Assembly: GCA_017608235.1 (NCBI GenBank)
Contig: JAFCGI010000001.1
Span: 65,423-129,422, forward strand
Direction: 5' to 3'
DNA: 64,000 bases
Source: Candidatus Pacearchaeota archaeon
GTDB taxonomy: Archaea > Nanobdellota > Nanobdellia > UBA10117 > JAFCGI01
Below are positions 49,489 to 50,903 of the stretch, piece by piece. Under the pieces are notes generated by a model, which made no database searches, had not been told where the DNA came from, and worked only from the letters and a program-made list of their open reading frames with translations. Made by a program: the position numbers and the translations under genes. The number at the start of each line of letters is the position of its first letter. Positions within the stretch are counted from its first letter, which is position 1.

Positions 49489-49502
49489 AGCTTTTAAAGC
49501 GA
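49489..49502 (+). promoter_or_regulatory. Promoter in front of the folded RNA and dnaG
   Basis: AAGCTTTTAAAGC is a symmetrical TATA-type box. Its centre is about 25 bases before position 49521, where a long self-complementary segment begins, so transcription should start at the base of that structure. Confidence 0.45.
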
Positions 49503-49520: not shown

Positions 49521-49668
49521 GCGAAAACAAAAGAAAATCGCGTATTAATTTAACTTTCATCATTTCATTATTTGAAAAAAAAGGAAGGCTAAATAGCCAT
49601 AATAAAGCTAATAGAGCTTTATCAGAGTGGAAAGAGCTGTTTAGTAGAGTGTAGATTTCTTTTGTTTT
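49521..49668 (+). ncRNA. Candidate structured RNA or structured dnaG leader
   Basis: A 13-base-pair uninterrupted helix pairs 49524-49536 with 49656-49668; two more pairs follow after one bulged A. Inside lie a perfect 8-pair hairpin with a 5-base loop (49602-49609 with 49615-49622) and a 4-pair GGCT/AGCC hairpin (49587-49598). The outer helix closes two bases before the dnaG ribosome-binding site GAGGTGAT. The whole is preceded by a TATA box at the right distance. No tRNA, RNase P or SRP signatures were found in it. It is either a small RNA or a regulatory leader. Confidence 0.45.
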
Positions 49669-49682
49669 AAGAGGTGATAATA

Positions 49683-50903
49683 ATGGGAAAAATAAGCCCT
49701 GTATCAATTAAGTATATTATTCATGCAAGTATAAAATTGAATGGTTTGATAGATAAACCAGATGTAATTGGTGCTGTTTTTGGCCAAACAGAAGGTTTAC
49801 TAGGAACTGAATTAGAGTTAAGAGAACTACAGAAATCTGGTAGAATTGGAAGAATTGATGTTAAATTAGAAACAAAATCTGGCAATACTGAAGGAGAGAT
49901 ATTTTTACCTAGTTCTATGGGTAAATCTGAAACTGCTATAATTGCAGCATCTCTTGAAACTATTGAGAGAGTAGGTCCTTGTGATGCTAAGATTAAGGTA
50001 ACGAATATAGAAGATGTGCGTGTAGCTAAGAGAAATTTTATTCTTGACAGAGCTAAAGACTTATTAAAAGGATTAGTTGGAGATATGCCAGATTCTCAAG
50101 CATTTACCAATCAAGTTACTCAAACTGTTAGAACATTAGAAATTACAGAATATGGTAAAGATAGGTTACCTGCAGGTCCAAACATAGAAGATGTAGAAGA
50201 AATAGTTATAGTTGAAGGTAGAGCAGATGTTATTAATTTGCTTAAATATGGCATTAGAAATGTTGTTGGATTAAATGGAGCAACCACTTCTGATAGTATT
50301 ATTGATTTATTGAAAAAGAAGGTAGTTACTTTGTTTGTTGATGGAGATAGAGGTGGAGATTTAATAGTGAGAAAGCTAGCTTCATTAGCAGATATTGATT
50401 TTGTGGCAAAGGCTCCAGATGGTAAGGAAGTTGAAGAGCTTACTCTTAAGGAGATAAATAAGTCTCTTAGAGCTAAGATTGCTTGGGAGCAAGCACAGGA
50501 AGAATTTAAGAGTGTTAGCCAATTAAAAGAAAAGCAGCAAGTTTCAAGAAAGCCACAACAAAGAAAAACATCTAATACTGGTTTTGAAAGGAGAACTAGT
50601 GTGGAAGATATTCCAAAAAAGAGTTTGAAACTTATAAGGCAAATGGCTGAAGAGTTAATTGGTACTAGAGGAGCATTTGTTTTGGATGAGGCTTTGAATA
50701 TTCTTGGAAAGGTTCCAATAAAAGAATTGAATGATACTCTGAAAAACATGACAGATGATATATTTGCAATTGTTATGGATGGTACAGCAGATAACAGATT
50801 AGCTAAGCTAGCTAATTCAAAAAATGTAAAATATTTGGTAGCTACTAGTTCTCAAGTTACAGAGAGAGTATCTACAAAGATTTTAATTTCATCTAAGATT
50901 TAG
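49683..50903 (+). CDS. dnaG: Archaeal DnaG primase-like protein
   Basis: 406 residues from the ATG at 49683, five bases after GAGGTGAT; a GTG at 49674 lies within that ribosome-binding site and was rejected. The N-terminal region (GVFGQTEGLLG-like at about residue 35) precedes a TOPRIM domain with VIVEGRAD at about 175-182 and DGDRGGD at 220-226, the metal-binding Glu and Asp residues. Archaeal DnaG lacks the bacterial zinc and helicase-binding domains and associates with the RNA exosome. The C-terminal region contains a Gln/Lys-rich linker near residue 285 and a helical domain. Confidence 0.93.
   Translation: MGKISPVSIKYIIHASIKLNGLIDKPDVIGAVFGQTEGLLGTELELRELQKSGRIGRIDVKLETKSGNTEGEIFLPSSMGKSETAIIAASLETIERVGPCDAKIKVTNIEDVRVAKRNFILDRAKDLLKGLVGDMPDSQAFTNQVTQTVRTLEITEYGKDRLPAGPNIEDVEEIVIVEGRADVINLLKYGIRNVVGLNGATTSDSIIDLLKKKVVTLFVDGDRGGDLIVRKLASLADIDFVAKAPDGKEVEELTLKEINKSLRAKIAWEQAQEEFKSVSQLKEKQQVSRKPQQRKTSNTGFERRTSVEDIPKKSLKLIRQMAEELIGTRGAFVLDEALNILGKVPIKELNDTLKNMTDDIFAIVMDGTADNRLAKLANSKNVKYLVATSSQVTERVSTKILISSKI

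Follow-up and report, generated by a model that had tools for sequence, protein, structure and literature searches.

The window (the whole stretch of 64,000 nucleotides analyzed here) contains, between a thermosome gene and dnaG, a segment at positions 49521 to 49668 that can fold into a long-range RNA structure, and the question raised by this locus is whether the segment is a small RNA gene, a leader of the dnaG mRNA, or a chance pairing in AT-rich DNA. Both flanking genes were identified as in the first-pass annotation; the product of the downstream gene matches NCBIfam DnaG (6e-135), and its start, an ATG at 49683, agrees with that of relatives (MGKISPVSIK). The features of the locus are as follows.

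49490..49500, + strand, TATA-like element GCTTTTAAAGC, seen in the sequence; putative promoter
49524..49536, + strand, 5' arm of the closing helix P1, AAAACAAAAGAAA; 13 Watson-Crick pairs with 49656-49668; covariation in homologues
49557..49568, + strand, UCAY cluster (UCAUCAUUUCAU), the conserved core motif; three UCAY in 30 nt
49588..49597, + strand, inner helix P2, 5' strand; pairs with 49636-49645, probability 0.61-0.83
49602..49622, + strand, 8-bp hairpin P3 (AUAAAGCU-AAUAG-AGCUUUAU); probability 0.79-0.97
49636..49645, + strand, inner helix P2, 3' strand; pairs with 49588-49597
49642..49647, + strand, UAGUAG motif 5' of the 3' arm; UAGUR recurs among leaders
49656..49668, + strand, 3' arm of P1, TTTCTTTTGTTTT; pairs with 49524-49536, from pair probabilities and covariation
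49671..49678, + strand, dnaG ribosome-binding site GAGGTGAT, seen in the sequence; mean unpaired 0.61 in the predicted fold
49683..50903, + strand, dnaG (archaeal DnaG, exosome RNA-binding subunit; 406 amino acids); NCBIfam DnaG

Fold of the element in the window

The perfect 13-bp helix described in the first-pass annotation is present, with 49524-49536 pairing to 49656-49668 and the arm starts 132 nt apart, and it closes, as had been stated, two bases before the dnaG ribosome-binding site, the 3' arm ending at 49668 and the site beginning at 49671. Pair probabilities within P1 were 0.83 to 0.99, except for the innermost two pairs (0.65 and 0.44). The segment 49521-49668 has a predicted minimum free energy of -33.5 kcal/mol (z -3.5), a value equaled by 2 of 200 shuffles. 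Inside the helix, the 8-pair hairpin lies at 49602-49609/49615-49622, while the 4-pair hairpin GGCU/AGCC that had also been proposed is retained only as an alternative, its bases being taken up in the favored fold by P2 (approximately 10 bp, 49588-49597/49636-49645), which encloses P3 and competes with the smaller hairpin.

The earlier statement that such a helix is unlikely by chance was too strong for the window alone, as a helix of equal stacking energy arose in 28 of 150 dinucleotide shuffles of its 300-nt dnaG upstream region. With a simpler helix score, 2 of 40 shuffles were as good, and none of 40 combined such a helix with a UCAY cluster. Given the AT-rich region, the helix by itself is only modestly unusual.

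Conservation and covariation of the closing helix

Going by how the genomes with the nearest DnaG sequences are named, the window's genome belongs to a Woesearchaeota-type DPANN archaeon. Of 56 relatives, 53 have DnaG, which was also found in 80 named genomes and in 262 of the 279 genomes of a phylum-level sample, which consists of genomes of the same class only. Upstream regions were scored for a helix of at least 8 pairs (weight 11) with at least two UCAY in the 32 nt following the 5' arm. This combination was present upstream of dnaG in 56 of 122 genomes, compared with 3 of 104 control windows inside dnaG, 1 of 95 windows located 1.1 to 1.34 kb upstream, and 1.15 per set of shuffles. When the same score was applied to 25 loci fetched later, approximately six of which have arms identical to those of named genomes already included and are taken as repeats, 17 passed, compared with none of 25 and none of 22 in the controls; several of the failures have a visible element that is shorter than the score allows (e.g., L173 and L184).

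The arms differ in sequence by lineage, with complementarity kept, in most nonoperonic dnaG upstream regions. Arm pairs found upstream of dnaG in relatives are listed below.

AGAACAAG/CTTGTTCT, relatives
GAAGGAG/CTCCTTCT, relatives
GGCGAGAA/TTCTCGCC, relatives
GAGAAATC/GATTTCTC, L020, an order-level relative of the window
CAGAAATCA/TGATTTCTG, L113 and L114, order-level relatives of the window

In an alignment of 25 model-aligned copies, 94.9% of cells were paired, a percentage inflated by the selection of most rows for pairing, and this fell to 44 to 50% when the partner was slid. Double-sided changes were found in 35 cells, compared with 12.5 +/- 3.4 in shuffles, and 6 of the 11 pairs had changed on both sides. 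The comparison with relatives, proposed at the outset as a means of refuting the pairing, thus failed to refute it, and the comparative evidence shows the helix to be real where the window alone does not suffice. One helix was longer than usual: in L129 (G043), an 18-bp perfect helix (AAGAATAAATATTAGAAC/GTTCTAATATTTATTCTT) has its 5' arm at -157 of dnaG, the usual length being 8 to 14 bp.

The least biased test was a blind scan of 234 genomes of the class with the arm pattern AGAACAAG-N(66-96)-CTTGTTCT, an exact arm sequence that is absent from the window itself. Matches were identified in 11 genomes, four of them with a UCAY core, and these four are exactly the ones located at dnaG, 24 to 126 nt upstream; the other seven are not at dnaG. 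The element of the window was found only once in its genome. A genome-wide search with covariance model R1 returned a training sequence as the sole match, although this model is low in information and was run with strict filters, so that absence elsewhere is not proved. It is because of conservation, rather than the window alone, that the helix was judged real, and on this comparative basis the closing helix with its UCAY core is a genuine structure conserved in many DPANN archaea.

Conserved core motifs

The interior of the element varies strongly in length and sequence (approximately 70 to 180 nt overall), and only the UCAY cluster and UAGUR recur. In the leaders of relatives, the UCAY run sits just 3' of the 5' arm. 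At least three UCAY within 30 nt were found in 50 of 124 leaders, compared with approximately 5 in shuffles, and a spacing of exactly 6 nt occurred 45 times across leaders where 2.5 were expected; the spacings in the window's own core are 3 and 5. UAGUR, a weaker motif, recurs in the 32 nt that precede the 3' arm; 19 of 58 leaders have it there, compared with a mean of 6.4 and a maximum of 13 in shuffles.

Variant arrangements upstream of dnaG

Two tandem leader-like elements precede dnaG at a number of loci (L033, L035, L038, L040, L042, L045, L049, L058, L059, and L075), where the AGAACAAG type usually comes first and a GAAGGAG-like type lies closer to dnaG. At other loci, a small Toprim gene (PRK04017-like) is located directly 5' of dnaG in place of the leader (L003, L006, L007, L010, L012, L017, L022, L023, L027, L030, L116, L120, L121, L123, L124, and L127). 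No clear evidence of a leader element was found at the small-Toprim loci; several have UCAY-like sequence around the Toprim start codon. In L012 and L023, 12-bp pairings run from the 5' UTR into the small Toprim coding region and were rare in controls (7 of 500 and 50 of 500 for L012; 6 of 500 and 3 of 500 for L023), and those at the other six toprim-dnaG operon loci were not rare. For these operons, such pairings do no more than suggest that the leader overlaps the beginning of the small Toprim gene. Repeated imperfect GGAGAAAAATAAAATGGGAAA-like copies of the dnaG ribosome-binding site and start were seen upstream of the real start in L010 (G009; -400 to 0 of dnaG) and L003 (approximately -180 to -155), and the upstream region of L010 also contains short tandem repeats.

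Outside the class, similar UCAY-rich, helix-flanked sequence was seen before dnaG in Aenigmatarchaeota (L089 and L095) and an unclassified archaeon (L096). Two Hydrothermarchaeota/Pyrohabitans genomes (L085 and L086) have UCAY-rich sequence and a 22-bp helix at this position, and ANME-2/Methanosarcinales (L103 and L111) have UCAY-rich sequence with a weaker, bulged helix. Apart from some computed helices, these cases were judged by eye and are treated as leads only.

A predicted H/ACA-like RNA upstream of the leader in relatives

In many members of the class, a predicted H/ACA guide RNA of approximately 75 nt precedes the dnaG leader. It has a stem AGCCCG..CGGGCU and an internal loop GAGARU/UAGU, the two guide strands of which fit helix 69 of 23S rRNA (ACUA-UA-AYUCUC). 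The target U is, according to our own alignment, the equivalent of E. coli position 1917. In genomes where both guide and target were found, GAGAAU occurred with AUUCUC (14 of 14) and GAGAGU with ACUCUC (7 of 7), a match in 21 of 21 genomes, across which guide and target covary. A count by hand in L016, L021, and L028 puts 14 nt between the upper stem and the ANA box that follows it, and archaeal H/ACA RNAs require a spacing of 14 to 16 nt (PMC4652768).

Matches to the H/ACA-like pattern were identified in 33 of 234 genomes of the class, directly 5' of the dnaG leader where this was checked; predicted loci include L016 (G026:C39:6762-6816), L014 (G053), L008, L021, and L028. The RNA has no match in Rfam, and it is absent from the dnaG locus of the window. 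For lineages with GAAGGU (L017, L028, and L127), a fit to ACCUUC is predicted by the guide sequence alone, and the f17 family (L030 and L116) has no obvious fit to helix 69.

Comparison with known RNAs

Against Rfam, the element matched no family at gathering score, and a permissive scan returned only subthreshold, chance-like matches (best E value, 0.2). A C/D box sRNA on either strand was rejected: inspection of the minus strand showed C-box-like RTGATGA with no conserved CTGA partner and no D boxes, and Rfam C/D matches were far below gathering score. RNase P RNA has no match in this region of the window, its gene being located on another contig of the same genome. A role of the UCAY core as a 23S rRNA guide was set aside, as the available 23S stretches contain no conserved complementary site. 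An anti-Shine-Dalgarno role partly fits the window (AUCAU against GUGAU) but is not general, since in most relatives the site is GGAGG and lacks GUGA. A literature search found no description of a dnaG leader, and a word search of the main text of the Sulfolobus exosome iCLIP paper (PMC7667871) found no mention of one.

Probable assignment to the dnaG mRNA

The first-pass annotation had left a choice between a new small RNA and a leader, and the position of the arms favors the leader. In nine genomes, all lacking the upstream H/ACA-like RNA and the window among them, the 5' arm follows a TATA-like box at a distance of 20 to 26 nt (counted by eye); in the window the spacer from GCTTTTAAAGC to the arm is 23 nt. 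This near-constant spacing places the 5' arm at the expected 5' end of the transcript. At the other end, the distance from the 3' arm to the dnaG start codon has a median of 24 nt among the 44 nearest copies (10th to 90th percentile, 13 to 53 nt), and the window has 14 nt between the end of the 3' arm and the dnaG ATG. There is thus no space after the 3' arm for a terminator and a dnaG promoter, which argues that the element lies within the dnaG 5' UTR, and the G-U pairs present in the plus-strand reading favor transcription of the plus strand. The element stays linked to dnaG across the class. As expected of an autogenous leader, a conserved structured element is found in the 5' UTR of the gene that would be regulated; the combination of own promoter and terminator belonging to an independent small RNA gene was not found. 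The tandem copies in some genomes and the small Toprim loci in others count against the leader explanation.

On balance, the stretch is probably a structured 5' leader of the dnaG mRNA, with a UCAY-reading protein setting translation or decay. It is likely that the leader functions as a regulator, and control of dnaG translation by it is plausible.

An unlikely alternative is that the leader protects or serves in processing of the mRNA with no dedicated regulator, P1 either hiding the 5' end from 5'-3' decay or acting as a cleavage substrate. The 5' arm does coincide with the predicted 5' end in the nine genomes, and excision of the upstream predicted H/ACA RNA would make a new 5' end beside the leader, but the conserved UCAY core, the 6-nt spacing, and the linkage to one gene would be left unexplained. 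An independent trans-acting small RNA, encoded beside dnaG by chance, is improbable; the discrete, conserved fold and the tandem pairs in some genomes are in keeping with it, and the lack of room after the 3' arm, the constant linkage to dnaG, and the single copy in the window's genome speak against it. Less probable again is a small-molecule riboswitch whose ligand pocket would be formed by the core and inner hairpin. A structured leader with a single gene downstream would suit a riboswitch, as would the tandem copies, which also occur in known riboswitches, but the variable interior, with a short linear repeat as its conserved part, is unlike typical aptamers, and DnaG is not a metabolic enzyme. 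That the pairing arose by chance in AT-rich DNA is very improbable; the window's single-helix energy lies within the shuffle range, but covariation, the helix and core counts, and the loci fetched later all run contrary to it, and judged from these comparisons the chance reading is already refuted for the leader family.

Proposed mechanism of the dnaG leader

Under the favored reading of a regulated dnaG leader, transcription would start at approximately 49521, and the first bases of the transcript would form P1 with the stretch that stops two bases short of the ribosome-binding site. P1 would close a domain displaying the UCAY cluster and the inner hairpin, and a putative UCAY-reading protein may stabilize or melt P1, this shift setting the efficiency of dnaG translation or the rate of mRNA decay, presumably in cis. 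The parts of this scheme that comparative sequence supports are the helix, its conservation and covariation, the UCAY core, and the linkage to dnaG. Direct blocking of the ribosome-binding site is not the common mechanism, since the site lies outside P1 and the distance to the start codon is variable.

UCAY is a typical target of KH domains, and the exosome cap protein Rrp4 contains a KH domain, which makes the exosome cap a second candidate reader beside DnaG. Autoregulation via DnaG or the exosome is the most economical candidate, although it is possible rather than probable. Feedback is the simplest idea because DnaG is the RNA-binding subunit of the exosome and the genome also encodes the exosome core: every one of the 24 genomes searched, like the window's genome itself, has two matches to RNase PH domains (Rrp41/Rrp42 type; one of the two is partial in G014), so that the decay machine expected for an autogenous leader exists in the organism. 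In archaeal DnaG, both the N-terminal domain and the Toprim domain bind RNA, and the protein allows the exosome to tail rRNA (PMC4227792). However, the reported preference of both DnaG and Rrp4 is for poly(A) rather than UCAY (PMC4227792), which speaks against a simple version of autoregulation.

The nearest known counterparts are bacterial. The E. coli pnp leader, through which PNPase is autoregulated (Jarrige et al. 2001, reference 242 of PMC3997798), likewise has a double-stranded 5'-leader structure, and its gene, like dnaG, encodes part of a machine that degrades RNA phosphorolytically in the 3'-5' direction. Unlike it, the dnaG leader has a conserved interior UCAY core, and there is no sequence relation; moreover, dnaG codes for an accessory RNA-binding subunit whose autoregulation is a proposal only. 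The autoregulatory leader of E. coli RNase III (rncO; reference 243 of PMC3997798) shares with the dnaG leader a structured leader on an RNA-decay gene. It differs, as does the rne leader, in its fold and in the domain of life, and the mechanism of the dnaG leader is proposed. The gene for RNase E (rne) in E. coli is another RNA-decay gene with an autoregulatory structured leader.

Implications for archaeal RNA control

To our knowledge, archaea have few known mRNA leaders that are both structured and conserved. This leader family offers a concrete, testable motif, the P1 helix with a UCAY array, and the relatives add a predicted guide RNA whose target is clean. A broader scenario, which we consider doubtful, would make the leader an old archaeal form of RNA control, in which the 5' end of the transcript pairs just before the Shine-Dalgarno sequence, an exosome-linked (perhaps KH-domain) protein reads the UCAY array, and DnaG feeds back on RNA decay in DPANN and possibly in methanogens and Hydrothermarchaeota; in the many lineages where the leader follows the helix 69 guide RNA, one transcript would couple ribosome modification and RNA turnover. 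If the leader is autoregulatory, archaea would control their RNA-degrading machine as bacteria control PNPase, by means of an unrelated RNA.
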